From Chloroflexota bacterium (GTDB lineage Bacteria > Chloroflexota > Anaerolineae > Anaerolineales > VGOW01), in assembly GCA_016875735.1 (NCBI GenBank), contig VGOW01000027.1:1-45777 (forward strand): a stretch of DNA of 45,777 nt, in the 5' to 3' direction. This document shows, piece by piece, positions 7,547 to 26,329 of this stretch. A program made the translations under genes and the position numbers. The notes under the pieces were generated by a model. It did not search any database. It was not told where the DNA came from and worked only from the letters and a program-made list of their open reading frames with translations. Positions within the stretch are counted from its first letter, which is position 1. Each line of letters begins with the position of its first letter.

Positions 7547-7547
7547 A

Positions 7548-7620: not shown

Positions 7621-7637
7621 TACGAACGGAGCGAGCT

Positions 7638-8232: not shown

Positions 8233-8342
8233 ACAAAACTCCTTTGCTGTTATACACCAGCCAGCCGGAGTATAACGAGCGAGGGGAGGGCTGTCAACCA
8301 ATAATTCAGCAGTGAAAATCACTAGCACTCAAGGAGTTCTCT

Positions 8343-9602
8343 ATGCCCGAAGTTTATAACTGGCAACTGGGCCGCAAGATGGCCTACGTGTACGAAGAAG
8401 CGCACCCGCAAAAGCAGTTCGCCGCCGTGTTCAACATCAACCGTTGCATCGGCTGCCAAACCTGCACCGGCACCTGCAAGGCCACCTGGACGTTCTCCAA
8501 AGGACAGGAGGCCATGTGGTGGAACAACGTCGAGTCCAAACCTTACGGCGGCTTCCCCCAGCACTGGGACGTGAAGATTCTGCAAAAGCTGGACGAGGCG
8601 CATCAGGCCGCCGGCAAGAAGGCGGAGTGGGACACGGCGCAGACGGGCGAGGCCGAGCCTTATGGCGTGTACAACGGGATGACCATCACCGAGGCGGCTA
8701 CCCCTGAGCAACAGGCGCTCGGCTACCTCCCGCCCGACTCCGAGTGGCGCGCTCCCAATTTCTACGAAGACACGTCCACCGGCTACAAAGGCGACAATCT
8801 CGGCATCAGCACCGAAGGCGCCTCTCTGCCCGAACACCAGACGTGGTTTTTCTACCTGCAGCGGCTGTGCAACCACTGCACTTACCCGGCCTGCGCCGCC
8901 GCCTGCCCGCGCAAAGCCATCTACAAGCGCCCGGAAGACGGCATCGTGCTGATCGATCAGGCGCGTTGTCGCGGCTACCGCAAGTGCGTTGAGCAGTGCC
9001 CGTACAAGAAGACGATGTATCGCGGCACGACGCGCACCAGCGAGAAGTGCGTGGCCTGCTACCCGCGCGTGGAGGGCAATGACCCGCTGAGCGACGGCGT
9101 GCCGATGGAGACGCGGTGCATGGCGGTTTGCCCCGGCAAGATTCGGATGAACGGCCTGGTGGACATCGCCGAGGATGGCTCGTGGGCCGAAGCGCCAAAC
9201 CACCCGCTCTATCACATGATCAAAGTGGAGAAGGTGGCCCTGCCGCTCTACCCGCAGTTTGGCACCGAGCCGAACATCTACTACATCCCGCCGCGCTGGG
9301 CCCCAAGAGCTTATTTACGCCAGATGTTCGGCCCCGGCGTGGACGAAGCCATCGCCCGCTACGTGGCTCCCTCGCGCGAATTGCTCGCCGTCCTGCAACT
9401 CTTCCGCACCACCCAGAAGATGATCTTCCGCTACGAAATCGAAGAAGGCCCGCTGGTGCTGGAAACTGAAGTCAACGGCCAGCCGTGGCAGATGTACGAC
9501 GACACCGTGATCGGCTTCGACGCCCAGGACCGCGAAGTGGCGCGGTTGAGCGTGGTGGAGCCGATTCATGAGAGGCCGGTGGAGAGGTTGAATTCGATCT
9601 AG
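8343..9602 (+). CDS. Type II DMSO-reductase-family iron-sulfur subunit (NarH/NxrB/EbdB-like)
   Basis: This 419-residue electron-transfer subunit carries four ferredoxin-type cysteine groups: CIGCQTCTGTCKATWT near the N-terminus, CNHCTYPACAAACPRK, CRGYRKCVEQCPYKK and CVACYPRVEG. In CRGYRKC a Tyr stands where a [4Fe-4S] cluster would have Cys. This marks the [3Fe-4S] site seen in NarH (Trp there), SerB and EbdB. It passes electrons between the Mo subunit and the haem subunit. It has no signal of its own, so it should be co-exported with the Tat-tagged alpha subunit. The ribosome site AAGGAG lies 6 bases before the ATG. An antitoxin gene separates it from alpha. Confidence 0.93.
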   Translation: MPEVYNWQLGRKMAYVYEEAHPQKQFAAVFNINRCIGCQTCTGTCKATWTFSKGQEAMWWNNVESKPYGGFPQHWDVKILQKLDEAHQAAGKKAEWDTAQTGEAEPYGVYNGMTITEAATPEQQALGYLPPDSEWRAPNFYEDTSTGYKGDNLGISTEGASLPEHQTWFFYLQRLCNHCTYPACAAACPRKAIYKRPEDGIVLIDQARCRGYRKCVEQCPYKKTMYRGTTRTSEKCVACYPRVEGNDPLSDGVPMETRCMAVCPGKIRMNGLVDIAEDGSWAEAPNHPLYHMIKVEKVALPLYPQFGTEPNIYYIPPRWAPRAYLRQMFGPGVDEAIARYVAPSRELLAVLQLFRTTQKMIFRYEIEEGPLVLETEVNGQPWQMYDDTVIGFDAQDREVARLSVVEPIHERPVERLNSI

Positions 9603-9642
9603 AATTGGTAATTAGTTATTGGTAATTGGTTATTGGAGGTTG
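9603..9642 (+). repeat. TTGGTAATTA-type AT-rich spacer repeat
   Basis: Tandem variants of ATTGGTAATTAGTT lie between the beta-subunit stop and the chaperone start. The last unit contains GGAGG at 9635-9639, which serves as the Shine-Dalgarno sequence of the next gene. The composition differs from the flanking genes. Confidence 0.55.
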
Positions 9643-9645
9643 GAT

Positions 9646-10320
9646 ATGAACACTGAGACTGCTGTCCGACGCGCGCAGGTTTATCGTTTTCTGGCCGATG
9701 CTTTTCTTTATCCGAGCGAGAACTGGTTGGAAGACCTGCCCCTACTCGCAGACATCTTGCGCGATTTGAATTTTGGAGTTTGGAATTTGGGGTTTGGAGT
9801 TTTGGATTTGCTTGCTTTGCAAGCCGAGCACCGCCACGCCTTCGGCCTGGTCGGCTCGCTGTGCTACGAAACCGAGCTGGGCCTGCCGCACGAGTATCGC
9901 CAGAGCCAGGAGATGGCCGACATTGCCGGGTTCTATCGCGCCTTCGGTTTCAACATCGGCGGCCAGGTGCGCGAGCGGCCCGATCACATCTCTGCCGAAC
10001 TAGAGTTCATGCACGTGCTGGCGCTCAAAGAGGCCTACGCCGCCGAGCGGGATGTGCTGGAGCATGTCGAAATCTGCATTGACGCTCAACGCAAATTCCT
10101 GCAGGAGCATCTTGGAAAGTGGGTGGGCCTGTTTGCCGAATCGCTGGCCCGCTCGGCAGAAGAGGGACCTTATGTGACACTTGCCCGTTTCGCCGCCGAT
10201 TTTGTGGAAGCCGATGCTAAACGATTTGGCGTGACCGTCGAACGGCGGTCGCTGGCCGGAGTCAAGCCCACGCCGCTCGCGCCAGAGATGTCGTGCGAAG
10301 CCTGCCCGGTTACGGAGTAG
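9646..10320 (+). CDS. TorD/NarJ-family molybdoenzyme assembly chaperone (delta)
   Basis: 224 residues starting from ATG at 9646, chosen because GGAGG lies 6 bases upstream; the ATG at 9619 has no such site. All-helical TorD/DmsD-type protein with the family hallmark RPDHISAELEFMHVLALKEA (about residues 111-130). It should bind the Tat signal of the alpha subunit and hold it until the Mo cofactor is inserted. It is not part of the mature enzyme. Residues about 40-55 (NFGVWNLGFGVLDLL) are encoded by an AT-rich repeat of the spacer type, an unusual in-frame insertion in the linker between helices. The C-terminus has CEACPVTE. Confidence 0.85.
   Translation: MNTETAVRRAQVYRFLADAFLYPSENWLEDLPLLADILRDLNFGVWNLGFGVLDLLALQAEHRHAFGLVGSLCYETELGLPHEYRQSQEMADIAGFYRAFGFNIGGQVRERPDHISAELEFMHVLALKEAYAAERDVLEHVEICIDAQRKFLQEHLGKWVGLFAESLARSAEEGPYVTLARFAADFVEADAKRFGVTVERRSLAGVKPTPLAPEMSCEACPVTE
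9763..9810 (+). repeat. TTTGGAGTTTGG repeat embedded in the chaperone gene
   Basis: GATTTGAATTTTGGAGTTTG followed by variants of GGAATTTGGGGTTTGGAG is the same unit that fills intergenic spacers elsewhere in the window, but here it is translated in frame. Its base composition and GVWNLGFGV-like product stand out from the surrounding coding sequence. Confidence 0.6.
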
Positions 10321-10337
10321 TGGACAGTGAGCAGTAA

Positions 10338-10390
10338 ACAGTGAACTCAGTGATCAGTGATTACTGATCACTGATCACTGAGTTCACTGT
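10338..10390 (+). repeat. Perfect 24-bp inverted repeat between chaperone and gamma-subunit genes
   Basis: The arm at 10338-10361 (starting ACAGTGAACTCAGTGATCAG) is exactly complementary to 10367-10390, with only a 5-base loop (TACTG). The arms are built from GTGATCA-like sub-repeats. There is no T-run after the stem. It is about 15 bases upstream of the gamma-subunit ATG, and the ribosome site GGAGCA is left outside the stem. It may be a stabilising or attenuating RNA hairpin, or a small repetitive element of the genome. Confidence 0.75.
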
Positions 10391-10405
10391 CTTTGGAGCA
10401 ACCCT

Positions 10406-11452
10406 ATGAATAAACGCTCTCTCCTTTCACTCAGTTTGATCTTGGCCGCCGCCGCCGCGCTTACCTTCTTCAAGGTTCCTCTCGCCGGGTCGCAGGGCCT
10501 CACCCTCGTCGCCGCGCAAGTGTCGGGCGATCTGCCGCTGGCCGATCTCGATTCTGCTGTGTGGCAGCAGGCGACGGCGATTGACGTGCCGTTGAGCGCC
10601 CAGAACGTCGTCCGGCCCATGATGTTGAACACCAACGTCAAGTCCATCACCGCCCGCGCTTTGCACAACGGAACGCAGTTGGCGGTTCTGGTCGAGTGGG
10701 CCGACGACACGCAAAACGACTCGATGGTTCGCGTGCAAGATTTCCGCGACGCGGCGGCGGTGCAGTTTCCGTTAGCCGAGGGCCAGCCATTTTTTTGCAT
10801 GGGGCAACAGGGCGGCAACGTCAACATCTGGCATTGGAAAGCCGATTGGCAAGCCGATATCACTGCGCGTAACGACATGCACACGCTCTACCCCAACATG
10901 TATGTCGATCAGTATCCGTTCAGCGCCGCCGCCGATCCGATTGTGGCTGCGCCCGCTGATTACGCCGACTCCAACTATCTGCCGGCCCTGGCTTCGGGCA
11001 ACTTGTTCGCCAGCGCCAGCCGCCTCTCGTCGGTGGAAGATGTGATCGCCGGCGGCTTCGGCTCGCTCACTGCTCAACCCGTCGAGGGGCAAAACGTGCA
11101 GGGCTACGGCGTTTGGGCCGAGGGCAAGTGGCGGGTGATCTTCAGCCGCGATCTAGAATCGACGGAAACCGAAGATGCTTCGTTCGGCGCGGGCAAAGTG
11201 TATTCGGTAGCCTTCGCGGTGTGGGATGGCGCGAATGGCGAGCGCAACGGGCAAAAGTCGGTGTCGCAGTGGGTGTCGCTGCAAATCGAAGGGGTGGCGG
11301 CTTCCCCCGCGCCAGCCGCCGCCGAGACGAAAACCGAGTCTGTGAGTTATGAAGGCGTGCTGTGGGCCGTTGTGCCAATGGCGGCCATGTTGCTGGCAAT
11401 ACTCGGACTCGCGGGCCTGGCCTTCCTTTTCTCGAAACTGCCGAACAAATAG
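10406..11452 (+). CDS. Haem b gamma subunit, ethylbenzene-dehydrogenase/DMSO-reductase type II family
   Basis: 348 residues: N-terminal signal segment (LLSLSLILAAAAALTFF), a beta-sandwich haem-binding domain, and a C-terminal membrane anchor (VVPMAAMLLAILGLAGLAFL). Likely axial haem ligands by comparison with EbdC/DdhC are Met132 in FFCMGQQ and Lys284 in NGQKSVSQW. Between them lie family landmarks NIWHWKADW and VAFAVWDG. It links the Fe-S subunit to the quinone pool or to a periplasmic cytochrome c. The membrane anchor is an addition to the soluble gamma subunits of EbdC, SerC and DdhC. Its stop overlaps the GTG start of the next gene. Confidence 0.88.
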   Translation: MNKRSLLSLSLILAAAAALTFFKVPLAGSQGLTLVAAQVSGDLPLADLDSAVWQQATAIDVPLSAQNVVRPMMLNTNVKSITARALHNGTQLAVLVEWADDTQNDSMVRVQDFRDAAAVQFPLAEGQPFFCMGQQGGNVNIWHWKADWQADITARNDMHTLYPNMYVDQYPFSAAADPIVAAPADYADSNYLPALASGNLFASASRLSSVEDVIAGGFGSLTAQPVEGQNVQGYGVWAEGKWRVIFSRDLESTETEDASFGAGKVYSVAFAVWDGANGERNGQKSVSQWVSLQIEGVAASPAPAAAETKTESVSYEGVLWAVVPMAAMLLAILGLAGLAFLFSKLPNK

Positions 11453-12455: not shown

Positions 12456-13472
12456 CTAACCGGCCTGCGCCGCCTTCGCGCGTTCTTTCTTCATCCGGTA
12501 CACGCGGTCGCCCTTGCTTTCCTTCATGCCTTTGATGATAGCGACTTCTTCGGGCCAGTGTTTGTTGAGCGGATGATTGGGATCCGTAGGCAGGTCGCCG
12601 CCCTCCTCCCAGGCCATCACGGCGAGAATAGCGGTGGCGGCGGCCACCGCGGCGAAAATACGCCTCATGCCGGTCATCGGGCCGCATTGCATCCAGTCGC
12701 TCCACAACACAGTGGAGAGCGAACTCATGCCAGCGTCCATTCCTTTGAACGCTTCCGACCCCCATTGTTTGAGGCAGTTCGTCCACATGTACGAAGCGTT
12801 GGCGGGCGCGTTCCCGGCCGGGATGCCGTATTCTTCTTTCACCATTCGATTGGCGAGCAGGCAGAATCCGTGCGTGGGCAGGTTCATCACCGTCGTGTCC
12901 ACCAAAATGGATTCGAACCCGGCCGGTTCGACGACTTCCATGATCTGCTCCAAACTTTTCATGCGGCCCGAAGGTCGCTTGTCTTCCATATCGAAGGGCT
13001 GAAGGATGACACTGCGGATGCCGAGCGATTTGAGTTCGGCCACTTGCGCGGGGATGTCGGGGTCCCAGGCGGTGATGCTGTTGTAGTTGAAGCGATCCTG
13101 CAAGCCGAGTTTGGAAACGTACCGGGCGGCGGTGAGTCGGGCTTCCAGAGTCCACGTGTCGATGCCGAAGGGCAGTTTGTTGCAGACGCTGAGGAAGAAT
13201 TCGGTATAGGCCTGCGCTTCCTCTTCGGTGGGGGCGACGATGCCCACCAACGCCGGGATGCCGAACTCTTCGGAGAGCTGCTCCAGTTCGCGCACGCGCG
13301 CGGCGTAGCTTTCCTTATCGAACTCCGGCGGCTTGCGCGATTTGACCAGTTTATCTTTGGTCTGGAACATATTGAACATCAACAGCGGCGGATGTTCGCC
13401 GGGTTGGCCGCCCACCTTTGCGCCCCAGATGTCGAAAACTTTTTGCGGTGTGTCGAAGCGGAAGAGTCCCAT
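12456..13472 (-). CDS. MtrH-family methylcorrinoid:tetrahydrofolate methyltransferase
   Basis: This 338-residue protein has the MtrH start FRFDTPQKVFDIWGAKVGGQ followed by PGEHPPLLM, and the later motif AARYVSKLGLQDRFNYNSI. In methanogens MtrH is the subunit of the Na+-pumping Mtr complex that moves methyl from methyl-tetrahydromethanopterin to a corrinoid. Stand-alone bacterial relatives such as MtgA, and archaeal MtoA, move methyl between a corrinoid protein and tetrahydrofolate or tetrahydromethanopterin. No other Mtr subunits are present. The adjacent genes for the adenosyltransferase, corrinoid protein, Zn methyltransferase and reactivase support the soluble MtgA-like role. The ATG at 13472 has an AAAGGAAA site. 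Confidence 0.88.
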   Translation of the reverse strand: MGLFRFDTPQKVFDIWGAKVGGQPGEHPPLLMFNMFQTKDKLVKSRKPPEFDKESYAARVRELEQLSEEFGIPALVGIVAPTEEEAQAYTEFFLSVCNKLPFGIDTWTLEARLTAARYVSKLGLQDRFNYNSITAWDPDIPAQVAELKSLGIRSVILQPFDMEDKRPSGRMKSLEQIMEVVEPAGFESILVDTTVMNLPTHGFCLLANRMVKEEYGIPAGNAPANASYMWTNCLKQWGSEAFKGMDAGMSSLSTVLWSDWMQCGPMTGMRRIFAAVAAATAILAVMAWEEGGDLPTDPNHPLNKHWPEEVAIIKGMKESKGDRVYRMKKERAKAAQAG

Positions 13473-13511
13473 GAAAAATTTCCTTTGCGATATACGATCT
13501 GCGGTTATTTG

Positions 13512-14084
13512 CTACTCGCCACCTGCCACTTGCCGCCCGCTTCCATTCGGTGAAGGTTTGGCCGGTGTGGGAGTCGTTACGCCTGCGGCTACATCTTCGG
13601 CGCGCGCCATGGCATACAACGTGGCCGAGAGATGATTGAGATACGGAATGATGTTCGGGTTGCTCAACGGCGTCTCGGCGTGAAATCGGATGGCGTGGCG
13701 CTCGGCGCGGCGCACGATGGCGCGGGCGAGTTGCAGGGCCGCGCTCACCACGGTGTCGCCGGGAGCCACGAACGATTCGCCCAGCGGGTGCCGCTCGGTG
13801 AGCGCGTAGAATTCGCTCTCCAGCCATTGCACGCGCTCGGCAGTCACGTGTCCGGCGAGGCGGGCGTCGGGGGTTTCGGCGGCAAACTCCGACATCATCC
13901 AGCACAGATCGTGTTGAATGGCGAGAATGAAGGCTTTGGTTTCGGCGCTGGCCGGGCCGGCGCGCACGATGCCCAGCGCCGACGAGGCTTCGTCGAGCGT
14001 GCCCAGCACCTCGAATCGCAGATCCGATTTGGATACGTCTTTCCGATCAATCAGATCGGTGAGGCCTTCGTCGCCGCGCCACAT
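13512..14084 (-). CDS. PduO-type cob(I)alamin adenosyltransferase
   Basis: 190 residues starting from ATG at 14084; a TTG 18 bases further upstream is less likely. This trimeric helical-bundle enzyme transfers adenosyl from ATP to cob(I)alamin. It shows the family pattern: N-terminal RGDEGLTDL with the ATP-binding loop, VLGTLDEASSALGIVRA, RAIVRRAERHAI and the C-terminal NHLSATLYAMAR. The N-terminal T-R-x-G-D motif is reduced to WRGDEG, so activity is probable but not certain. Here it may supply or repair the corrinoid of the neighbouring methyl-carrier protein. The last ~20 residues (GSGRQVAGGE) read through a repeat-like sequence. Confidence 0.82.
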   Translation of the reverse strand: MWRGDEGLTDLIDRKDVSKSDLRFEVLGTLDEASSALGIVRAGPASAETKAFILAIQHDLCWMMSEFAAETPDARLAGHVTAERVQWLESEFYALTERHPLGESFVAPGDTVVSAALQLARAIVRRAERHAIRFHAETPLSNPNIIPYLNHLSATLYAMARAEDVAAGVTTPTPAKPSPNGSGRQVAGGE

Positions 14085-14100
14085 GGTTTGAGCGGATAGC

Positions 14101-14183
14101 AAATGGCAAATGGCAAATGGCAGGTGGCAAGTAGATCGTAGCCAACCTCAACACGCTAAATGCTATTCGCTAATTGCTAATCG
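14101..14183. repeat. AAATGGC/GCTAATTGC short-unit spacer repeats
   Basis: Three copies of AAATGGC at 14101-14121, then GCAGGTGGCAAG, are followed near 14158 by AATGCTATTCGCTAATTGCT and a partial copy. This low-complexity spacer lies between the adenosyltransferase and corrinoid-protein genes and is composed of 7-9 base units. Confidence 0.5.
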
Positions 14184-14918
14184 CTATGATGTTTGCATCA
14201 CGCCGTCTTCGCCCCATTCCTTCGCTTTGCGGTCGGCCTTGAAGTCGTCGCCGAGTTCGCGCAGAACGCCGATCATGTTGAGCGCCTCTTGCAGAGCGTT
14301 GGGCGCATCCTTGCCCGTGCCGTCGGCGCCCCACTTGTCGGCAATGTCCTCGTTAATCGGCGCGCCGCCGATCAGAATCTTCGCTCTCGGATTCTTCTCG
14401 CGCACTTTCTGAATCACCACCGGCATACCGATCATCGTCGTGGTCATCATCGCGCTCATGCACACAATGTCCGAGTCCGTTTCCAGATATTTGTCCACGA
14501 AACTATCCAGCGGCACATCGCGGCCCAAATCATGCACGATGAACCCGGCCACTTCGAACATCATCTTCACCAGATTCTTGCCGATGTCGTGGATGTCGCC
14601 CTCCACCGTGCCGATGACCACACTGCCTTTGACCATCTTGGCCGGATCCATTTTGATGTGCGGTTTGAGGATGTTCAGCCCGGCATAGAGCGCGTCGGCG
14701 CACATCAGCACTTCGGGCACAAAGTATTCCCCGCTGGCGAAGTATTTGCCGACCACATCCATTCCAGCGGCCAATCCGTCCATCACCGCTTTGTAAGCGT
14801 CCATGCTTTCTTCCAGCGCCTCATTGGCGGCGGCAATGACGGTTTCTTCGTCGTACTCGACGACGCCGTTCTTCAATCGTTCGAGAATATCGGCTTGCTG
14901 TTCTGCGGTTGCGGTCAT
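14184..14918 (-). CDS. Corrinoid (methyl-carrier) protein, MtaC/MtbC/MtoC-like
   Basis: 244 residues starting from ATG at 14918, which has GGAGGA 7 bases upstream; the longer frame is rejected. The N-terminal helical cap domain covers about residues 1-90. The B12-binding Rossmann domain follows with the base-off/His-on signature D108-x-H110-x2-G113 (EGDIHDIGKN), Ser155 in MSAMM and the GG pair at 184-185 (IGGAPI). The Co ligand should be His110. It shuttles methyl between a substrate-side methyltransferase and an acceptor-side one. It lies between MtrH and the MtaA-like protein on one operon, so it is the probable carrier for both. Confidence 0.93.
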   Translation of the reverse strand: MTATAEQQADILERLKNGVVEYDEETVIAAANEALEESMDAYKAVMDGLAAGMDVVGKYFASGEYFVPEVLMCADALYAGLNILKPHIKMDPAKMVKGSVVIGTVEGDIHDIGKNLVKMMFEVAGFIVHDLGRDVPLDSFVDKYLETDSDIVCMSAMMTTTMIGMPVVIQKVREKNPRAKILIGGAPINEDIADKWGADGTGKDAPNALQEALNMIGVLRELGDDFKADRKAKEWGEDGVMQTS

Positions 14919-14956
14919 GTTGTCCTCCATGGTGTGGGCGACCGTGAAGGTCGCCC

Positions 14957-16069
14957 CTACACTTTCACTCCATATTTCTTCATCGCGGCCATCATGGCCT
15001 TCATGTTGTCTTCGGGCACCACCGGCCAAATGTCACAGCCGGGCCACACGCCATCTGCGCCCTCTTCGATAGACTGTTTGATCATCGCCTCCACTTGCTC
15101 GGGCGTGCCTTCGCAAAACTCGCCGAACGGTTTGTAGTTGCCCAACAGAACCACATTGGGCACTTTCGTTCGCGACTCGGGCAGGCGGTTGGTTTGATCC
15201 ACACTCAGCGCGTTCGCGCCCGACTGCGCCATCAGCTCGACGATGGGATTCGTGTCGCCGCAAATGTGCAGCACAGTGGGCGCCGACTTGATCCGCCCGA
15301 ACAGCGCTTGCAGATTCGGCAGCACCAAATTCTTGAACATGCGCGGGCTGAGGATGCTCGACGTCGCCCCCATCTCGCGCACGGTGATGAAATCGGCGCC
15401 GGCCTCAACATACAAATTGATCACGTCGGTGAGGTAGTCCACCATGAATTGCAGGTGGCGGTTCACCACATCCGGTTTCTTGGCCGCCATCTTCAACAGG
15501 ATTTCCAAGTCCATCACCTGACCGAGCTCGGTGAACGGGCCGAGAGTCCACGACCCAATGGCAACCTCATTCCCCACTTCGCTTTTGAGTCGGCGCAGGG
15601 CATCGAGCACCACCGGGATGCGGCCCATCTTGGCGAGGTCCGCCGGTTTTTGAAATTGGTATTCGGTGATCTGCCGCTCGGTTTCCTTCATGATGTGCGT
15701 TTTGGCGTCGGCGTCACTCATGCCTTCGGGCGCGGCGATGGCGGCGCGATCCACGATCTTGCGGATCATCGTCGGGTAGATGATCTGACTCTGATCGGCC
15801 TTGTCGTAATACTTCACCGTTGCGCCGAGTGACTCGGCCACCACGCCCATATCGAACGGCACGACCGCGCTCTCTACCCCGTAGAGGCGATACGTCGTCG
15901 CGGCGGCGGCGGCCATCTTCGCCCCATCCACGTGAATCTCGTTGAAGCGGTAGCCGAGCGATTGAATTCCCTGCAAAGTGATGCTGCCCATCCCCGAAAA
16001 GTTGGGGACGCGATCGGCTTTTTCGCCGCGCAAAACTTTGAGTACGGTTTCTTTTTGGGTGTCGGGCAT
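14957..16069 (-). CDS. MtaA/CmuA-family (UroD-fold) zinc methyltransferase
   Basis: 370 residues, start ATG at 16069 preceded by GGAGAT. The N-terminus ADRVPNFSGMGSITLQGI is typical of the MtaA/CmuA group. The zinc site reads H268-x-C270 (VLHICGD) and C345 (WPGCD), equivalent to the His-x-Cys...Cys site that activates the coenzyme M thiol in MtaA and MtbA. The reaction is methyl transfer between a corrinoid protein and a thiol, or from a methylated substrate to the corrinoid. A CoM biosynthesis operon lies 5 kb away, which makes CoM a credible acceptor or donor (inference). It sits between the corrinoid protein and reactivase genes. Confidence 0.88.
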   Translation of the reverse strand: MPDTQKETVLKVLRGEKADRVPNFSGMGSITLQGIQSLGYRFNEIHVDGAKMAAAAATTYRLYGVESAVVPFDMGVVAESLGATVKYYDKADQSQIIYPTMIRKIVDRAAIAAPEGMSDADAKTHIMKETERQITEYQFQKPADLAKMGRIPVVLDALRRLKSEVGNEVAIGSWTLGPFTELGQVMDLEILLKMAAKKPDVVNRHLQFMVDYLTDVINLYVEAGADFITVREMGATSSILSPRMFKNLVLPNLQALFGRIKSAPTVLHICGDTNPIVELMAQSGANALSVDQTNRLPESRTKVPNVVLLGNYKPFGEFCEGTPEQVEAMIKQSIEEGADGVWPGCDIWPVVPEDNMKAMMAAMKKYGVKV

Positions 16070-16094
16070 GATGATGATCTCCTGTCGCCAGTGA

Positions 16095-18434
16095 TTATTT
16101 CGCTCTGGCCAAACGCTCTTTCAGCGTTGGCTCGGTTTCCATTTCTTTCGCCACCTCGGCGCGGGGAATGGCCAGCACTTTGGTGTTGAGCGCGGTGGCT
16201 TTGGCCGACGCGCTGTTGGGTTGGTTTCCCGCGATGACCGCGCCGTTGAGTACCGCGCCGTCTTTCAATTCCGTTGCGCCGTCCGTGTCCGAAGCGACGG
16301 CCACCGATCCTTCTTTGACGATGTACAGCGCGGTCGGTTCACTGCCTGCGGCGAAGATGGCTTGATTCTTCTTGAAACGCATCTCCTCCGTTACGGCGGC
16401 CAGCCGCCGCACCACATCGCTGGGCAAGTCGGCGAAGAGCGGGTTGACTCGCAGAAGCCGTTGCGCGCGCTCACGCATGGCTTTGTCGAGCATCTTCTGC
16501 AAATGGGGGAACGAGTCGCTCATGTGCGGGAAGTGCATGGCGGCGGCGAACTGCTTCTCGAAATCGGGCTCCACCGTGAGTTCCACATATTCGATGTGCC
16601 GCGCCACTTCGTCGGCTTCGGCGCGTTTGTCGGTGTTGAGCAGAGCCATGCGCGCGCCGTCGCCCGCCGCGTTGCCCACCGCGAACACGTTCTTCAGTTC
16701 GCAATCGGGGTACAGCCCCATGGCCATCGCTTTCACTTTGTCGATGAAACTGCCGAAGGCTCCGGCCAGCACCACTTTATCCACCTTCGGCACGCCCAGC
16801 CGCCGCATCATAATTTTGGCCGCCGAATACATGGCCGACTTCGCCAACTGCAAGGCGCGCATATCGGCATTGTTGAAGGTGATGTCGCGGCCAATGGATG
16901 TTTGATTGGCCCAGGCGATCACGAATTCGATTCCGCCCGGCCCTTCGCGCAGTCGCGGCGAGTGCGTCTCTTTCGAGAAGCGGCCGGTGGCGTCCACCAC
17001 TCCGGCCCGATACATTTCCCAACCGAGATCGATCATAGCCGAGCCGCACAACCCGCGCGCTTTGATCTCTTCCGGCGGCAACTCGTCCGACCATTTTTCT
17101 TCGCCGATCGTTTTGAAGCGCACATCCCACGTTACCGGATCGATGTCCACCTTTTCGATGGCCCCCGCCGCGGCGCGCATGCCGAATTGAATCTGCGCGC
17201 CCTCGAACGCCGGGCCGGTGGGCACCGAGGCCGAGATCAGTTTGTGGCGGTTGCCCAGCACCATTTCGCCGTTGGTGCCAATGTCGATGACCAGCATAAT
17301 GTCATCCTGCTTATACGGCTCTTCGGCGATCACACAGGCCACGTTGTCGGCGCCCACGAACCCGGCCTCGTTGGGCAGAACGTGCACGTTGCCGCTGGGC
17401 AAAATCTTCAGGCCGAAGTCGCGCGCCTTCACATCCACCGAATGGTGAATAGCCGGAGCAAACGGCGACACGCCGACATATTTGGGGAAGATGTTGAGGA
17501 AGATGTGATCCATGCAGGTGTTGCCCACCAGCACGGTTTCGCATATTTCTTCGGGTTGGTAGCCCGCTTTTTCGCACACGCGCTCGACAATGGTGTTCAA
17601 CCCCTCGATGATGGCGCGGTGCATCTTCTCCAGCCCGTCCGTGTGGGTCATGGCGTAGGTGATGCGCGCCATCACGTCGTCGCCATAGGGCGTTTGCGGA
17701 TTCATCATCGACTCGGAGGCGAGCACCTGCCCGGAATCGAGATCGCAGAGGAACCCAGCAACCGTGGTAGTGCCGACATCCACCGCCAACCCGAGACTAT
17801 ATTCGGCGAACCCGGCCGCCACGCGGATCACTTCGCGCCCTTGCCACACGAACGCGGTCACTTTCCATTCACCCGCACGCACGATCTTTTGCAGCTGAGT
17901 GAGCACGGGGTAATCGATATGCAGGCCTTCGAGCCCGTGATGCTCTTTGAGCGCGTTCTGCAATCGCTCCCAATCGCCGAGCGGGTCGCGCAGGGTGGCC
18001 GGCTTCATCTCCACAAAGTAGCGGCGCATGGCAGACTTGATGGGAATGTTGAGTTCGCGCGCCGATTTGCGGACGAGTTGTTTGACGGCGCGGCTCTCTT
18101 CGGGCACGAAGACGACGAGCGGGCCGTGCACTTTGACCACGCAGCTTTGGCGCAGGTTGGGCTCGTTGAGGCCTTTGGAACGGAAGAAATCGCGCTCCTT
18201 TTCCAGCACCGGGTTGCAGTGGCTCAGGCTCGATTCGATTCCGAAGCGCTCGAACGATCCTTCTTCGATGCGCACGCGGCACTTCGAGCACATAAGCAGG
18301 CCACCGCAGGGAGTTTCGATCTCGACGCCGAGCGAGCGAGCCACTTCCAGCAAATTCGCGCCGTCCTCGACATAGCCGCGACTGCCGGAGGGTTGGAAGA
18401 CAACGAGGTGTTTGGGTTTTGATTCGTCGGGCAT
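16095..18434 (-). CDS. Corrinoid-protein reactivase (RACE, RamA/MtoD analogue) with C-terminal cNMP-like domain
   Basis: This 779-residue ATP-dependent reductive activator returns inactive Co(II) corrinoid proteins to Co(I). Residues 1-105 are a [2Fe-2S] ferredoxin with C43-x5-C49-x2-C52 and C98 (TPCGGLLMCSKCRV). A linker and an ASKHA-fold (DUF4445) ATPase follow, with AVDVGTTTVAGFLCD, LVIDIGTNGEMVLG and VVLAGAFGSF. Bacterial RACE proteins usually end near 600-650 residues. Here about 120 more residues form a cyclic-nucleotide-binding-like beta-roll (VNPLFADLPSDVVRRLAAV, IFAAGSEPTALYIVKEGSV). The phosphate-binding cassette is not conserved, so it may bind another ligand or act as a sensor. 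It is adjacent to the corrinoid protein and MtaA-like genes. Confidence 0.92.
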   Translation of the reverse strand: MPDESKPKHLVVFQPSGSRGYVEDGANLLEVARSLGVEIETPCGGLLMCSKCRVRIEEGSFERFGIESSLSHCNPVLEKERDFFRSKGLNEPNLRQSCVVKVHGPLVVFVPEESRAVKQLVRKSARELNIPIKSAMRRYFVEMKPATLRDPLGDWERLQNALKEHHGLEGLHIDYPVLTQLQKIVRAGEWKVTAFVWQGREVIRVAAGFAEYSLGLAVDVGTTTVAGFLCDLDSGQVLASESMMNPQTPYGDDVMARITYAMTHTDGLEKMHRAIIEGLNTIVERVCEKAGYQPEEICETVLVGNTCMDHIFLNIFPKYVGVSPFAPAIHHSVDVKARDFGLKILPSGNVHVLPNEAGFVGADNVACVIAEEPYKQDDIMLVIDIGTNGEMVLGNRHKLISASVPTGPAFEGAQIQFGMRAAAGAIEKVDIDPVTWDVRFKTIGEEKWSDELPPEEIKARGLCGSAMIDLGWEMYRAGVVDATGRFSKETHSPRLREGPGGIEFVIAWANQTSIGRDITFNNADMRALQLAKSAMYSAAKIMMRRLGVPKVDKVVLAGAFGSFIDKVKAMAMGLYPDCELKNVFAVGNAAGDGARMALLNTDKRAEADEVARHIEYVELTVEPDFEKQFAAAMHFPHMSDSFPHLQKMLDKAMRERAQRLLRVNPLFADLPSDVVRRLAAVTEEMRFKKNQAIFAAGSEPTALYIVKEGSVAVASDTDGATELKDGAVLNGAVIAGNQPNSASAKATALNTKVLAIPRAEVAKEMETEPTLKERLARAK

Positions 18435-18536: not shown

Positions 18537-18800
18537 TCACTCTTCGGGGATGAGGGTGTAGGCATTCAAGCCAGCGGTGGCAATGGCGATGTCGGTGGCG
18601 GCGGCCAGTTCGGCGTCGGTGCAGCCGGCCTTCTTAGCCGAGAAGTAGAAGTAACTCACCGCGCCGTCGTTGCCGGTGGCCAGCGCGGCGACGAAACAAA
18701 GCAGGTTGCCCGTTTTGGGATCGACCGGCGATTTCGAAAACACTTCGTTCGCCCACTCGTAATACTTCGCCTTCATGCTTCCGGGTTCGGGGACTCTCAT
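18537..18800 (-). CDS. Small carboxymuconolactone-decarboxylase/AhpD-like protein
   Basis: 87 residues, start ATG at 18800 overlapping the upstream stop (ATGA). Helical protein with CFVAALATGNDGAVSYFYFS and AELAAATDIAIATAGLNAY, the pattern of short CMD/AhpD-like proteins. The usual CxxC peroxidase pair is missing (one Cys at AGCTD and one at LLCF). The function is unknown. It is the last gene of the operon that contains a zinc methyltransferase. Confidence 0.6.
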   Translation of the reverse strand: MRVPEPGSMKAKYYEWANEVFSKSPVDPKTGNLLCFVAALATGNDGAVSYFYFSAKKAGCTDAELAAATDIAIATAGLNAYTLIPEE

Positions 18801-19141
18801 GGGTTGTCCTCTGCGGGGGTTGAGGTGAACGTGATGGTCACGTCTTTGGGCACGGCCACGCCCGTTTCCACTTCGATGGCTTTGATGATGGCTGAAGGCA
18901 CGGGGCAAGCCGTGTGCCGGATGTGCGTCGCCGCCGATTTGTACACCGCGCTCTCGGTCATGCGCTTGAACACTTCGTGGCCTTTGCCTTTCCACTGCAA
19001 GTTTTGCAGATCAGGATTCATGTCCGTGATTTGATCGCACTCACTGCGGATGACGACTTGCACGCGGGTGTCGTCCACTTTGGATACTTCGATAACCGCC
19101 GAGTGGCCGCATACGCCCGCGAACACTTCGACACGGGTCAC
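18797..19141 (-). CDS. Small protein of a corrinoid-methyltransferase operon (DUF6951-like)
   Basis: 114 residues starting from GTG at 19141, which overlaps the stop of the methyltransferase gene (GTGA). Features are VFAGVCGHSAVIEV, VVIRSECDQI, THIRHTACPVP and IIKAIEVETGVAVPKDVTI. I believe this matches a family of about 110 residues (DUF6951) found near methyltransferases, but cannot verify it here. Conserved Cys and His residues (VCGHS, SEC, HTACP) suggest metal or cobamide-related binding (inference). Confidence 0.6.
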   Translation of the reverse strand: MTRVEVFAGVCGHSAVIEVSKVDDTRVQVVIRSECDQITDMNPDLQNLQWKGKGHEVFKRMTESAVYKSAATHIRHTACPVPSAIIKAIEVETGVAVPKDVTITFTSTPAEDNP

Positions 19142-20163
19142 AGGGCGGCCTCCATCATGGCCTGCACGTTGCCGAAGGGGGTCGTCGGCGTCATTTCGCA
19201 TCCGGTGGTGACGATGAAGCCGTCGGGCCCGGCGGCTTCTATGCAGCGCTTCGTCGCGGCGATCACGTCGTTGATGCCCCCTTGATCCATGATATGAACG
19301 GGATCGACGTTTCCGGCGATGGCAACCTTTCCTTTGCACACTTGTTTCGCCATCCCCATATCCACTTTTTGATCGAGGCTGAGGCATACCGCGCCACTGT
19401 CGATCATCAAATCCCATTTGTCGGCGGTGTTGCCGCAGATGTGCAGCCACGTGTCCACGTGATACGAGCGCTTGGCCCAGTCGATGAATTCCATCAGCGG
19501 GGGCAGGCAGAATTTGGCAAAGGCTTTGCGCGAGATCGTGTCCGACGAGGCTGAGTGATCGGCAAGGCTGATGAGGCCGATGGTGCGCTGTTCGAGGAGC
19601 GGCTTGTAGTATTGCTTGAGCGCTTTCACCGCGAAATCGGTCATCCGGTGAATCGTTTCGGGGTGAGTGATGGTGGCGCGGAGGAATCCGTCCAACCCGT
19701 ACATTTGCCCGGCGGTGGTGAACGGCCCCCACTGAGTGACGGCGACGATGGTCGAGTCGCCCAAGGTTTCGTGGACACGCCGCGCCGTTTCGCGGATGGT
19801 GTACACGGCGGGGTCGCGGTCGAGTTCGGTGAGATCGATGTTGTTGACTTCCTCGTCGCTTTCCAGCACCAGCGGCACGACGACTTCGGGCGACCCCATG
19901 CGGGGGAAGCGGATGCGCCCGCCGAGCGCTCCGGTGAGCACATTGTTGAAACCGGAACCGACGAACACGATGGGGCTGGACACTTTCTTTTGCGTTGCCA
20001 GCACGGCTTCGGTCATCAGGTCGCGATCGGTGGCCGCTTCGCGCATCGTGCGCCCGATCTGGTTCACACTCCACTGCCCGCCGCCAAAAAGCACCGCCGG
20101 AACTTTGGGCGGCGCGCCGCGATGGAAGGCTTCTCGGATTGCGTCCGGTGAATTCTTTTGCAT
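19138..20163 (-). CDS. UroD-fold zinc methyltransferase, paralogue 1
   Basis: 341 residues, start ATG at 20163 with AGAGG upstream. TIM-barrel uroporphyrinogen-decarboxylase superfamily protein with a complete thiol-activating zinc site H241-x-C243 (TWLHICGNT) and C322 (TTGCE). These positions are nearly identical to those of archaeal MtbA. It is not a haem-pathway UroD: it lacks the expected N-terminal Arg motif and sits among C1 genes. It closely resembles the protein at 21304-22326 (shared SPIVxVGSG, WGPFT, AGQMYG, AGNVDPV). It likely acts on a methylated substrate, a corrinoid protein or CoM. It is coupled to the DUF6951-like gene by GTGA. Confidence 0.85.
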   Translation of the reverse strand: MQKNSPDAIREAFHRGAPPKVPAVLFGGGQWSVNQIGRTMREAATDRDLMTEAVLATQKKVSSPIVFVGSGFNNVLTGALGGRIRFPRMGSPEVVVPLVLESDEEVNNIDLTELDRDPAVYTIRETARRVHETLGDSTIVAVTQWGPFTTAGQMYGLDGFLRATITHPETIHRMTDFAVKALKQYYKPLLEQRTIGLISLADHSASSDTISRKAFAKFCLPPLMEFIDWAKRSYHVDTWLHICGNTADKWDLMIDSGAVCLSLDQKVDMGMAKQVCKGKVAIAGNVDPVHIMDQGGINDVIAATKRCIEAAGPDGFIVTTGCEMTPTTPFGNVQAMMEAAL

Positions 20164-20172
20164 CGGAGCCTC

Positions 20173-20466
20173 TTATGCGGGTTGGCGTTTCGCCAATTTT
20201 GCCAATCGTTGCGACGGATAGGCGGCGATGATTTCGGCCACGACGGCTTCGGCCACCTGCGCCGCCGCGCCCGGCCGCTCTTCGGCCTCGCCCCAACGGA
20301 AGGCGGCTTGATACGCTTTTTGGCCGGTCGCGCCATCGACCATCGCCGCCGCGTCCACCACCGCCTCGAACTCGCGGGGCAACTGCTTCGACACGCGGCC
20401 CTGATCGTCGCTCACTCGCACCGCGTACGGAATATCTTTCCAATACATGATCTGAACTTTAGCCAT
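20173..20466 (-). CDS. Virulence-factor (PF13769-type) small protein
   Basis: 97 residues with MAKVQIMYWKDIPYAVRV and GRVSKQLPREFEAVVDAAAM, matching the small family annotated as virulence factor, whose biochemical role is unknown. It starts 1 base before the upstream stop region and ends 9 bases before the methyltransferase start, so it is in the same operon. Proteins of this family occurring in methyltransferase operons may be subunits or maturation factors (inference). Confidence 0.65.
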   Translation of the reverse strand: MAKVQIMYWKDIPYAVRVSDDQGRVSKQLPREFEAVVDAAAMVDGATGQKAYQAAFRWGEAEERPGAAAQVAEAVVAEIIAAYPSQRLAKLAKRQPA

Positions 20467-20760
20467 TCACTTCGCTCCTTCCGCCGCCTCGACGATGCCG
20501 CGCTGGACAACTGGAAAGGCGGTGATGTTCCACACGTCGGCGAAAAATTCCACCAGCCCGTGAATGATCGCCGGGTCGTCGGCCTCCATGAGCCAAAACG
20601 TTTTCTTGGGAGAGGCGCCGACAACTTCGTATCGGGCGAGGGTTTGATATTTGCCCGCGAAGGGGCTCCGCCTCTCCCATTCGAGATAGGCTTGGCGGTT
20701 GTCCGCGATTTGTTGGAGGGTGACGCCGGGTTTGGCGTCGCCGACCACGATGAAAACCAT
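20467..20760 (-). CDS. Small alpha/beta (ferredoxin-fold) protein, DUF3303-like
   Basis: 97 residues: MVFIVVGDAKPGVTLQQIAD, AYLEWERRSPFAGKYQTLAR, FWLMEADDPAIIHGLVEFFA, WNITAFPVV. The alternation fits a dimeric alpha-beta barrel fold such as DUF3303 or muconolactone-isomerase-like proteins. No catalytic residues can be named. It lies between the TrmB regulator and the virulence-factor-like gene, with essentially no spacer on the downstream side. Confidence 0.55.
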   Translation of the reverse strand: MVFIVVGDAKPGVTLQQIADNRQAYLEWERRSPFAGKYQTLARYEVVGASPKKTFWLMEADDPAIIHGLVEFFADVWNITAFPVVQRGIVEAAEGAK

Positions 20761-20784: not shown

Positions 20785-21195
20785 CTACAACCCGCCGATA
20801 CGATCCTCGCCGGAACGCGAGGCGCGAATCAAAGAATCGGTTGCGCTGTTTCCGTTCCCCGACAGCTCGAGGTCGGGGACGAGTTGCCGGATGATTCCGG
20901 CGATGCGTTCGTTGTCGAGGGCTTGGGCGCGAAGCCGCGCTTCGTACATCAGAGGCAAAGCAACAGACGGCGGGCGCGCCGAGTGGCGGGCCGGCCGTCC
21001 GTCGCGAATGTCGATCAGGCCTTTGTCGCGGAGAGAGGTGAGCACATCGTAAATACGTTGACGGGGAACGCCAGCGCGGTCGGCAACCTCGACGGCGGTG
21101 GAATCGTCGTGGCCGAGCAGGGCGAGGTAGGCGCAGGCTTCGTATTTGCTCAGGCCTAAGATAATGAGGCGGTCAGGGCTTATTCTTGCAGCCAT
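20785..21195 (-). CDS. Short TrmB-family transcriptional regulator
   Basis: 136 residues starting from ATG at 21195 (MAARISPDRLIILGLSKYEA). Winged-helix DNA-binding domain with STAVEVADRAGVPRQRIYDV, GLIDIRDGRPARHSARPP and a short coiled tail. Full TrmB proteins carry an extra ~150-residue sugar- or ligand-binding domain that is missing here. It is the first gene of the operon that includes zinc methyltransferase 1. A palindrome 32 bases upstream of its start may be its own operator (inference). Confidence 0.82.
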   Translation of the reverse strand: MAARISPDRLIILGLSKYEACAYLALLGHDDSTAVEVADRAGVPRQRIYDVLTSLRDKGLIDIRDGRPARHSARPPSVALPLMYEARLRAQALDNERIAGIIRQLVPDLELSGNGNSATDSLIRASRSGEDRIGGL

Positions 21196-21226
21196 TGAGT
21201 GAATTGTCACTGAGACTACGGATTAT

Positions 21227-21303: not shown

Positions 21304-22326
21304 TCAGTTTCTCGCCATTCCCAGCATGGCCTGCAAGTTTTCGAGCGAAATGGTGGGGGGCAGGTCACAGCCGCTGGTGAGAATGAAGCCGCCGCCAGCC
21401 GAGGCGGCGTCGATGCAGGCTTGAGAGGCCGCCCGCACGTCGTCGGGGCCTTTCTGATTCAGCACCGACACCGGATCGACGTTTCCGGCGAGGGCAATCA
21501 TCTTTCCCACACGCTCTTTGGCCGTGGCCATATTCACTTTGTAGTCGAGGCTGAAGCAACTTGCGCCCGTCTCGGCGATGGCTTCCAACTTGTCGGTGGT
21601 GTTGCCGCAAATGTGCAGCCAGGTGTACACGCCGTGCTCTTTGGCCCATACCAGCAGGGGCTGAAGGCGCGGCAGTGAGAACGCGCGAAACATCCGCTCG
21701 GAGATCAGATCGCCGGAGCCGGTGGGGTCGGAGATGGCAAGCAAGGGAATGACTTTTTCTTCGACCAGCGGTTTGTAGAACTGCTTGACCAGTTTGGTGG
21801 CGAACTCCATCATTTTGTGGACTTCGTCTTTCTTTTTCAGCGCGGCCTTCATCATCGGCTCCACGCCATACATCTGCCCGGCCAGCGTGAACGGCCCCCA
21901 CGCCGTCACCGTCACCACATATTCGTCGCCAATCGCTTTCGCCACCAGCCGCGCCGCCTCGCGGATGTTTTGAATCACCGGATCGTTTTCGATGATCGTT
22001 ACATCCGTGTTCACGATCTCATCCGCCGTCTCTTTCACCAAATGCGATTCGAGATCGGGCGTGCCCAGCGGGCGCTCTTTGATCTTGCCGCCGATGGCCG
22101 CCGCCAAATAGTTGTTGTAACCCGATCCGACGTACACGATGGGGCTTTTGACAAGTTCATTCGTTTTGATGATCAACTCCGCGTATGCTTTGGGGTCGGC
22201 GATCATTTCGCCGAACTGCTTTTGCCAGCGGCGGATCGTCCACACGCCCCCGCCGAACACCGTTGCCGGAACGGCCTGTGTGGGTTTGAGATCGAATGCT
22301 GCGAAGATGGCTTCTTTGGGTGTCAT
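21304..22326 (-). CDS. UroD-fold zinc methyltransferase, paralogue 2 (last gene of the CoM operon)
   Basis: 340 residues. Zinc site H238-x-C240 (WLHICGNT) and C320 (TSGCD), as in MtbA/MtaA-type methyl-corrinoid:CoM methyltransferases. It resembles the protein at 19138-20163 over its whole length (FGGGVW, SPIVYVGSGYNN, WGPFTLAGQMYG, AGNVDPV). The gene follows the PLP enzyme by 50 bases and is followed by a terminator, so it should be made together with the CoM biosynthetic enzymes. This makes CoM, or a methylated CoM, its most likely thiol partner (inference). Confidence 0.86.
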   Translation of the reverse strand: MTPKEAIFAAFDLKPTQAVPATVFGGGVWTIRRWQKQFGEMIADPKAYAELIIKTNELVKSPIVYVGSGYNNYLAAAIGGKIKERPLGTPDLESHLVKETADEIVNTDVTIIENDPVIQNIREAARLVAKAIGDEYVVTVTAWGPFTLAGQMYGVEPMMKAALKKKDEVHKMMEFATKLVKQFYKPLVEEKVIPLLAISDPTGSGDLISERMFRAFSLPRLQPLLVWAKEHGVYTWLHICGNTTDKLEAIAETGASCFSLDYKVNMATAKERVGKMIALAGNVDPVSVLNQKGPDDVRAASQACIDAASAGGGFILTSGCDLPPTISLENLQAMLGMARN

Positions 22327-22376: not shown

Positions 22377-23363
22377 TTACGAAGTCAAGTCTTTGATTTC
22401 CGAATGCGCAAAGAGTCCCGGCTCGCCGCCGGTGTGCAGAAAAACAATGGTCTCGTTCGGCGCGATGCCGCCCGCGCGAATCTCGGCCAGCAGTCCGGCC
22501 ATGCCTTTGCCGGTGTATGTTGGGTCGAGGAAGAGGCCCTCGGTTCGGGCGACGAGCCGGATGGTCTCGGCGCATTCGGGCGTGGGGATGCCGTAGCCCG
22601 GCCCGATGAATCCATCACGCACGACGACATCATTCGCCGCTATTTCGATGTCGCTTCCCGCCAGCCGCGCCGCCTCGCCCGCGATGCGCGCGATGCGCCC
22701 CACACACTCCTCTACCGGGCGGCTCACCGTCACTCCGAACACGCGATACGGCGCGCCATAGATTTTCGCTCCGGCCAGAATCCCGGCCTGCGTGCCGCAC
22801 GAGCCGGTTGCCAACACGAGTCGAGTCGGCGCCACACCCAGCGCCTGCAATTGCAAACCCAACTCGCGCACGAATTCGATATATCCCAACGCGCCCAACG
22901 CCGACGCGCCCCCGCGCGGAATCACGTACGGCCGCCGCCCGGCGCGGCGCAACTCGTCGGCAACTTCTCCAATTCTCGAATCAACCAGCGCCCGATCAGG
23001 GTTGTTGGTAAATCGTATTTGCGCGCCGAGCAATTCATCGAGCAAAAGGTTGCCCTGCGTGTCGGCGGGGCGCGAGTCGTGAATTACGGCGACGACCTCC
23101 AGCCCAGCCACGCGCGCCGCCGCCGCGGTGGCCCGCACGTGATTCGATTGCGGCCCGGCGCCGGTCACAATCACATCGGCGTCCTTCGCCAGCGCATCGG
23201 CGAGGTAAAACTCCAGCCCGCGCACTTTGTTGCCGCCGAATCCGAAGCCGGTCATGTCGTCACGCTTGATGAAGATGCGCGGCCCGCCGAGCGCTTTCGC
23301 AAGACGCGGCGCTTCGAGCAGAGGCGTGGGGAAAATGCCGAGCGGGAAGCGGGGAGGCATCAT
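22377..23363 (-). CDS. PLP-dependent D-cysteine desulfhydrase/ACC-deaminase-like enzyme (XcbE1-like, putative CoM biosynthesis)
   Basis: 328 residues starting from ATG at 23363, which overlaps the previous stop (ATGA). Fold-type II PLP enzyme with the Schiff-base lysine in GFGFGGNKVRGLEF (Lys near 47), IVTGAGPQSNHVRATAA, phosphate loop LATGSCGTQAG, and C-terminal DPTYTGKGMAGL and FLHTGG. On its own it would be annotated D-cysteine desulfhydrase. Following a ComA homologue and two aspartase/fumarase-type lyases, it takes the place of XcbE1 in the Xanthobacter CoM operon. There a PLP enzyme is thought to install or release the thiol from a cysteine adduct. Confidence 0.82.
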   Translation of the reverse strand: MMPPRFPLGIFPTPLLEAPRLAKALGGPRIFIKRDDMTGFGFGGNKVRGLEFYLADALAKDADVIVTGAGPQSNHVRATAAAARVAGLEVVAVIHDSRPADTQGNLLLDELLGAQIRFTNNPDRALVDSRIGEVADELRRAGRRPYVIPRGGASALGALGYIEFVRELGLQLQALGVAPTRLVLATGSCGTQAGILAGAKIYGAPYRVFGVTVSRPVEECVGRIARIAGEAARLAGSDIEIAANDVVVRDGFIGPGYGIPTPECAETIRLVARTEGLFLDPTYTGKGMAGLLAEIRAGGIAPNETIVFLHTGGEPGLFAHSEIKDLTS

Positions 23364-24733: not shown

Positions 24734-24757
24734 GGAGCAAACTCCAAAGATCAAACT

Positions 24758-26326: not shown

Positions 26327-26329
26327 GGC

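Follow-up and report, generated by a model that had tools for sequence, protein, structure and literature searches.

The window analysed here is the 45,777-nucleotide stretch at positions 1 to 45,777 of contig VGOW01000027.1 from the draft genome (G000, 97.8% complete) of an uncultured Chloroflexota bacterium. It encodes a run of corrinoid methyltransferase and coenzyme M (CoM) biosynthesis genes that may exchange methyl groups between CoM and tetrahydrofolate (THF). An earlier note on this DNA had placed five of the genes together, encoding an MtrH-family protein, a corrinoid carrier, an MtaA-like zinc protein, a RACE activase and an adenosyltransferase. Family scans confirm their families, their position at 12456-18434 and their common minus strand. 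They are transcribed in the order RACE, UroA, corrinoid protein, PduO-type adenosyltransferase and MtrH, and 25-81 bp separate neighbouring genes. The feature extends beyond what that note stated, as every recognised gene from 34045 down to 12456 is on the minus strand. The additional genes encode two further MtaA-like proteins, five CoM biosynthesis proteins, FolD, three CMD-family proteins, an OsmC protein, a cbb3-type oxidase pair and a TusA-DsrE protein. The run begins at 34045 with TusA-DsrE, CcoN, CcoO, OsmC, a small open reading frame (ORF), CMD3, CMD2, FolD, XcbA, ComA/XcbB, XcbC, XcbD and XcbE. It continues with UroC, a TrmB regulator, DUF3303, a PF13769 protein, UroB, DUF6951, CMD1 and the five genes from RACE to MtrH.

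The MtrH-family protein (12456-13472; PF02007, E 1.7e-42, 146 bits against a gathering cut-off of 22.8) is a predicted methyl-corrinoid:THF methyltransferase. The PduO-type cob(I)alamin adenosyltransferase (13512-14102) matches PF01923 (Cob_adeno_trans, E 1e-39) and TIGR00636 (123.8 bits against a cut-off of 108.45). The 244-aa methyltransferase corrinoid protein (14184-14918) combines PF02607 (B12-binding_2) with PF02310 (B12-binding), scores 196 bits with TIGR02370 (cut-off 215.3) and carries the DxHxxG motif, present as DIHDIG at residue 108. UroA (14957-16069, 370 aa; PF01208, URO-D, 2.4e-62) is the MtaA-like zinc enzyme and predicted methyl-corrinoid:CoM methyltransferase. The RACE/RACo-type corrinoid reductive activase (16095-18434; PF14574 4.8e-91, PF17651, PF17650, PF00111 and Fer2) has a C-terminal cyclic-nucleotide-binding domain (PF00027, 4.9e-11) that was absent from the earlier description. 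RACE matches run to the C-terminal end in loci with xcb genes and end near residue 649-667 in loci without them, which suggests an added regulatory domain.

Coenzyme M biosynthesis genes

Upstream of the corrinoid genes, the stretch 22377-28130 holds the complete bacterial Xcb pathway and, by family assignment, is the gene set for bacterial CoM synthesis. It encodes an XcbA-family protein (27231-28130; NF052538, 454.7 against a cut-off of 150), a ComA/XcbB phosphosulfolactate synthase (26330-27220; TIGR03849, 297.3 against 280; PF02679, 4.5e-79), an XcbC-like protein (24758-26326; NF052535, 557.9 bits against 575) and XcbD (23360-24754; NF052536, 673.8 bits against 600). An XcbE-like pyridoxal phosphate enzyme follows (22377-23363, with a likely start within the ORF at 22377-23420; NF052537, 411.9 bits against 450). 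CoM had been guessed as a methyl carrier on the basis of one homology, and these genes just upstream strengthen the guess considerably.

MtaA-like zinc methyltransferases

The nearest solved structure to UroA is MtaA, the methylcobalamin:CoM methyltransferase of Methanosarcina mazei (4ay7, 9.7e-41). A 12-sequence UroA profile scored 218 bits against MtaA 4ay7 and 67 bits against the best uroporphyrinogen decarboxylase (UroD). A Foldseek search with the predicted UroA structure returned 4ay8 and 4ay7 as top matches, and similarity to MetE was far weaker. The model is mediocre (mean predicted local distance difference test score, pLDDT, of 65; three-row alignment) and served as support only. In a tree built from the sequences collected for this analysis, UroA grouped with MtaA (89/95), separate from UroB and UroC. 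UroA is predicted from sequence to use CoM as its methyl acceptor.

The two further paralogues are UroB (19138-20163; PF01208, 4.4e-50), which is predicted to take a methyl group from an S-methyl donor, and UroC (21304-22326; PF01208, 9.6e-53). The zinc ligands are H268, C270 and C345 in UroA, invariant across all UroA rows aligned, H241, C243 and C322 in UroB, and H238, C240 and C320 in UroC. The HxC...C pattern is kept in every aligned row of all three proteins. This His-X-Cys...Cys arrangement is typical of S- and Se-methyltransferases, in contrast to O-demethylases (PMC10418091). In the O-demethylases of the UroD superfamily (OdmB, VdmB, MtvB, MtoB), one or both zinc cysteines are replaced by carboxylates or non-ligands (PMC10418091). 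Demethylation of vanillate or other methoxy compounds was rejected as a function, as both zinc cysteines are intact in UroA, UroB and UroC. UroA matches URO-D only and the corrinoid protein is a separate gene, so this is not a methyltransferase-corrinoid fusion of the CmuA type. A plasmid search yielded no useful CmuA-like references.

MtrH-family protein

The nearest solved relatives of the MtrH-family protein are an MtrH (8z9u_B) and MtgA (6sj8 and others). THF contact residues taken from the MtgA crystal structure (PMC7154762) were mapped onto it. The catalytic D102, N129, D194, N227, Y230 and F243 are kept. D75 is altered to G, S32 to N and R236 to K, and Y35, H38, F251 and W272 are also changed. 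The Asp75 site is Gly in close MtrH relatives, Ala in the next clade and Asp in more distant MtgA-like proteins. Because of its family membership, the protein is likely to use THF.

Conservation across Chloroflexota

Intact MtrH is rare, found only in G000, G006 and G026 among 61 relatives and in none of the four same-genus genomes. An MtrH search of genome contigs gave one named relative only, JACQWQ010000161.1, from a Chloroflexi groundwater metagenome-assembled genome. Among the 396 genomes of the class, XcbA scored above its curated cut-off in seven, and MtrH with at least 50% identity to that of the window occurred in nine, four of which are among the seven XcbA carriers. The hypergeometric p of about 4e-6 for this co-occurrence is a guide and not an exact probability, because the genomes are related. 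A first count, in which all four 'window-type' MtrH proteins accompanied XcbA (p 3e-8), was discarded since the group had been picked after the result was known, and the wider group was used instead.

MtrH and Xcb proteins occur together in six genomes of six families (G000, G006, G026, G206, G240 and G321). In the five other than G000 the two gene sets are mostly linked, with rearranged gene order. In G006, xcbC, xcbB and xcbA lead straight into the genes for the adenosyltransferase, corrinoid protein, UroA, RACE and MtrH. G026 has the order xcbE-xcbD-xcbC-mtrH-xcbB-xcbA-adenosyltransferase-corrinoid-UroA-RACE-DUF6951-UroB, which places mtrH between xcbC and xcbB. One contig of G321 carries XcbA-C, the corrinoid protein, UroA, RACE and a partial MtrH, and one contig of G240 carries XcbA-E and MtrH. 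The genes of G206 are spread over several contigs.

Two large Chloroflexota genomes (G330 and G355; L019-L022, L026-L027, L099) encode XcbA, XcbB and XcbD without MtrH, which would imply a use of CoM other than the MtrH module. No clear substrate emerged when both were inspected for alternative CoM use.

Genome context and other genes of the run

No match to the alpha subunit of methyl-CoM reductase (MCR; PF02249) was found in the whole genome, and control archaea were positive. This bears out genome-wide the earlier statement that no mcr genes are visible, and methanogenesis or reverse methanogenesis was rejected on this ground. The genome likewise has no match to PF01717, the MetE family to which the epoxyalkane:CoM transferase (EaCoMT) belongs; controls were again positive. 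By elimination in this draft genome, the MtaA-like proteins would be the only known CoM-using enzymes left.

FolD, a methylene-THF dehydrogenase/cyclohydrolase (28137-29036; PF02882 8.9e-63, PF00763), directly precedes the CoM genes. Elsewhere in the genome, on contig C17 (L127), MetF and MetV (DUF5981) adjoin HdrBC-like proteins and a 1567-aa HdrA-like flavin/Fe-S protein, a set that resembles the methylene-THF reductase complexes of acetogens.

The run also encodes three CMD/AhpD-family proteins. CMD1 is small (18537-18767, 76 aa; PF02627, 2.2e-8), and CMD2 (29076-29498; PF02627, 2.2e-14) and CMD3 (29573-30004; PF02627, 1.2e-6) are adjacent. CMD3 is kept in most related loci and recurs beside CoM genes, and a cbb3-type oxidase and/or DsrE-like protein lies nearby in some relatives (L016, L023, L028). 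The DUF6951 protein (18797-19105; PF22263, 1.1e-24) accompanies almost every MtrH-UroA-RACE locus, whether CoM genes are there or not, and is a candidate accessory part of the module. A PF13769 protein (20173-20466; 'Virulence_fact' in Pfam name only) and a DUF3303 protein (20467-20760; PF11746, 9.7e-5) are both kept in L014, L016 and L025. Next to them lies the gene for a TrmB-family transcriptional regulator (20785-21210; PF01978, 1.1e-20).

The upstream end of the run encodes an OsmC-family thiol protein (30398-30946; PF02566, 1.3e-20), cbb3-oxidase subunits II (CcoO/FixO, 31281-31838; PF02433, 3.1e-31) and I (CcoN, 31769-33154; PF00115, 2.2e-81; ccoN model, 297 bits) and a TusA-DsrE sulfur-carrier fusion (33236-34045; PF01206 1e-17, PF02635 1.6e-14), whose real start is probably downstream of the ORF start. 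Just past the run, family scans place a divergent histidine kinase and LuxR-type response regulator (33984-36347). On the other side, a plus-strand gene set of the nitrite oxidoreductase/nitrate reductase type (4100-11452) encodes a molybdopterin subunit, an Fe-S subunit, a chaperone and an EB_dh heme-b subunit. The 1148-aa molybdopterin subunit matches nitrite oxidoreductase subunit A (7b04_B) over its full length with 1786.6 bits.

Proposed methyl exchange

We consider it reasonably probable that the locus encodes a corrinoid hub linking CoM and THF, and probably methyl-sulfur donors too, by methyl exchange. RACE would hold the one corrinoid protein in the Co(I) state, UroA would move methyl groups between the corrinoid and the CoM thiol, and MtrH would move them between the corrinoid and THF. 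The net reaction of UroA and MtrH would be CH3-CoM + THF <=> CoM + CH3-THF, which corresponds to the archaeal Mtr reaction carried out by soluble proteins and without ion pumping. XcbA-E would provide the CoM, and UroB and UroC probably bring in methyl groups from further S-methyl donors, to this corrinoid or to CoM. FolD and the MetF/MetV-Hdr enzymes of the genome could connect methyl-THF to oxidation. Genes, families, zinc-ligand conservation, synteny and the absence of other known CoM users are computed, while every substrate, the net reaction and its direction are inferred.

Several observations weigh against this assignment. UroA falls under the MtaA equivalog cut-off (209.7 against 400) and for this reason is not called MtaA; TIGR01463, the MtaA/CmuA subfamily (cut-off 235.4), is not reached by UroA (210.4), UroC (181) or UroB (156.8). 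MtrH is under both of its equivalog cut-offs (MtgA, 139.7 against 550 bits; archaeal MtrH, 136.6 against 271.4 bits) and has Gly in place of MtgA Asp75. XcbC and XcbE are slightly under their curated cut-offs, with XcbA, ComA and XcbD above. Homologous MtrH and UroA modules occur without XcbD or XcbA in five genomes (G343, G272, G065, G157 and G229), and UroA proteins from genomes with and without xcb genes differ at about 20 positions. For the catabolic direction, the energetics set out below are a further obstacle.

The modules without xcb genes consist of MtrH and UroA, together with the corrinoid protein, RACE and DUF6951. No XcbD above cut-off was found in the five genomes that carry them, so the thiol used by UroA need not be CoM everywhere. 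ComA matches in G157, G229 and G343 were rejected as a sign of CoM synthesis, as xcbC and xcbD are not alongside and the family includes a Bacillus member. The MtrH-UroA unit also occurs in G471 and G581, which belong to other classes and were outside the Xcb searches. In G581, a 1.0-Mb Chloroflexota genome, the module (L124) has genes for a formate-THF ligase-like protein and FolD nearby. In G343 and G272, two Chloroflexota of one family, MtrH and UroA form a single uninterrupted reading frame (L070:3132-5117, L071:13461-15428), which supports a direct functional coupling of both methyltransferases.

Both fused clusters lack CoM biosynthesis and encode an NMT1/SsuA-type binding protein. HdrD/HdrE-like proteins adjoin the corrinoid gene in L070 (Hdr-like and NMT1/SsuA-type genes at L070:308-2353 and 6773-7810, L071:10502-11545). 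By family, the Hdr-like and NMT1/SsuA-type genes possibly serve thiol-disulfide reduction and the uptake of sulfonates or CoM. Hosts without xcb genes may either take up CoM, at which the binding proteins only hint, or have a UroA that works on another thiol, for which homocysteine is the obvious candidate. UroA proteins of genomes with xcb genes form one clade (100/98), and a change of thiol between the two groups is possible because of this separate clade and its differing positions. The discriminating positions show no consistent agreement with MtaA and decide nothing.

CoM as a partner thus gains indirect backing from the conserved adjacent XcbA-E genes, the absence of another known CoM user and MtaA as nearest solved relative; the modules without xcb genes keep CoM use by UroA from being established. 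THF as a partner is indirectly favored by the nearest relatives (archaeal MtrH and MtgA), the retained catalytic Asp, folD in the run and the MetF/MetV-Hdr genes, with the Gly or Ala at position 75 throughout the clade counting on the other side.

Direction of the exchange

Methyl transfer from methyl-H4MPT (tetrahydromethanopterin) to CoM is exergonic by 30 kJ/mol in the archaeal reaction (PMC10998594). A soluble, uncoupled system would therefore be biased towards methyl-CoM, and catabolic flow from methyl-CoM to THF is probably uphill without coupling. Methyl-THF is more stable than methyl-H4MPT; the energy gap here is thus probably smaller, and the catabolic direction would still need a pull. 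A pull of this kind towards methyl oxidation would be consistent with FolD, with the cbb3-type oxidase and with MetF/MetV and their HdrA-like and HdrBC-like neighbors. The catabolic direction is somewhat favored by folD and the oxidase and opposed by the energetics. The earlier note took methyl-CoM for a catabolic intermediate, as no mcr genes are visible; the flow this implies is tentative, and the energetics favor methyl-CoM formation.

As a sub-case of the proposed hub, the exchange could run mainly from methyl-THF to CoM, with methyl-CoM as product, store or methyl donor. The archaeal energetics (PMC10998594) speak for this, as does the lack of a recognised ion-pumping subunit in the cluster that could power the opposite direction. 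It remains somewhat doubtful, since no methyl-CoM-consuming enzyme was recognised (no mcr) and the FolD and MetF/MetV-Hdr genes fit methyl oxidation. Conceivable, though less likely than not, is a form of bacterial methylotrophy with self-made CoM as a central methyl carrier, in which methyl groups pass from methyl-sulfur compounds to CoM and on to THF through MtrH, the corrinoid protein and the MtaA-like enzyme. Such a pathway would be linked to oxygen or nitrogen-oxide respiration and involve neither MCR nor an ion-pumping Mtr.

Alternative functions

Three UroD paralogues with His-Cys-Cys sites, a corrinoid protein and RACE make up the core of type 1 mlp gene clusters (MGCs; PMC10418091), and the run includes the sulfur proteins TusA-DsrE, OsmC and CMD/AhpD. 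The locus could accordingly demethylate methyl sulfides or methyl selenides with THF as final acceptor, and CoM would be a separate redox or detoxification thiol. The published definition of MGCs leaves out any cluster that contains a THF methylase, and CoM genes are not mentioned for them (PMC10418091). With UroA grouping with MtaA and mtrH lying within the CoM gene order of G026, we regard this function as unlikely.

A split B12-dependent methionine synthase, in which MtrH and the corrinoid protein take the methyl group from methyl-THF, UroA passes it to homocysteine and the CoM genes serve another purpose, appears quite improbable. UroA/MtrH pairs without CoM genes do occur, the L124 pair (not covered by the xcb search) is near formate-THF ligase and FolD, the genome lacks the MetE family PF01717, and a His-Cys-Cys zinc site would suit homocysteine equally well. 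The genome of the window, however, encodes a separate homocysteine S-methyltransferase/MTHFR protein (L129:6338-8209), which speaks against homocysteine there, and in the Foldseek search UroA resembles MtaA far more than MetE. Such a synthase would also explain neither UroB and UroC nor why, in separate families, its genes are interleaved with those of a full CoM pathway.

All described bacterial CoM clusters serve alkene or epoxide metabolism (PMC11507031), but a chance neighborhood of such a pathway with corrinoid genes is very improbable given the lack of an EaCoMT-family gene in the genome and the co-occurrence of MtrH with XcbA.

Relation to known systems

The proposed corrinoid hub shares with the archaeal Mtr complex (MtrA-H) an MtrH family subunit and the net reaction, methyl-pterin <=> methyl-CoM via a corrinoid. 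It differs in its soluble parts, in an MtaA-like CoM enzyme that takes the place of MtrA/E, in using THF where Mtr uses H4MPT, and in its RACE activase and bacterial host. General family scans recognised no MtrC, MtrD, MtrE or MtrA in the run, and no genome-wide search was made. MtaABC, MtbA and MtsA of methanogens likewise have a UroD-fold zinc enzyme with a His-Cys-Cys site and a corrinoid partner. Here the host is a bacterium that lacks mcr, and the zinc enzyme, which scores under the MtaA equivalog cut-off, is accompanied by an MtrH/THF enzyme. MtgABC (Desulfitobacterium, glycine betaine) and MtoABCD (Methermicoccus) combine an MtrH-family methyl-corrinoid:pterin methyltransferase with a corrinoid protein and an activase. 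Their MT1 is of the MttB type (MtgB) or an O-demethylase (MtoB), and CoM is not their acceptor (PMC8630106).

Type 1 mlp gene clusters (Kountz and Balskus, PMC10418091) resemble the locus in having several UroD-family His-Cys-Cys proteins, a corrinoid protein and Ram/RACE on one strand. The locus conforms to their layout rule (at least two Mlps, corrinoid and Ram on one strand within 2 kb) if its UroD-family proteins are counted as Mlps irrespective of the Mlp1-3 clades, and departs from the rule of no THF methylase homologue within 20 kb through its MtrH. It also has CoM biosynthesis. MGC hosts are reported to be obligate anaerobes, but the contig here encodes a nitrite oxidoreductase-type enzyme along with the cbb3-type oxidase. 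The CoM clusters of alkene oxidisers (Xanthobacter, Mycolicibacterium, Methylohalobius) share the XcbB/C/D/E-type biosynthesis genes, but here corrinoid methyltransferases are linked to them instead of an epoxyalkane:CoM transferase. The CmuAB chloromethane pathway is similar in that an MtaA-related enzyme, a corrinoid and a THF methyltransferase feed methyl-THF oxidation. CmuA fuses methyltransferase and corrinoid domains, whereas here they are separate, with three UroD paralogues and added CoM biosynthesis.

According to PMC11507031, only methanogens and aerobic alkene users are known to have CoM genes, and PMC8630106 describes THF as the end point of bacterial corrinoid systems and CoM as that of archaeal ones. 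Our literature search found no report of CoM biosynthesis combined with an MtrH/MtaA-like corrinoid module in bacteria, although papers beyond the search could exist. CoM probably has a new role in bacteria, the exchange of methyl groups with THF via soluble corrinoid enzymes, as an operon joining both carriers through one corrinoid protein would provide; such an operon would depart from both rules. A soluble version of the Mtr reaction becomes testable with a handful of proteins. CoM genes in metagenomes should not be read automatically as methanogenesis or alkene oxidation, and the locus is relevant to the ways in which methyl carriers of the methanogen type and THF metabolism could have been joined or separated in evolution.

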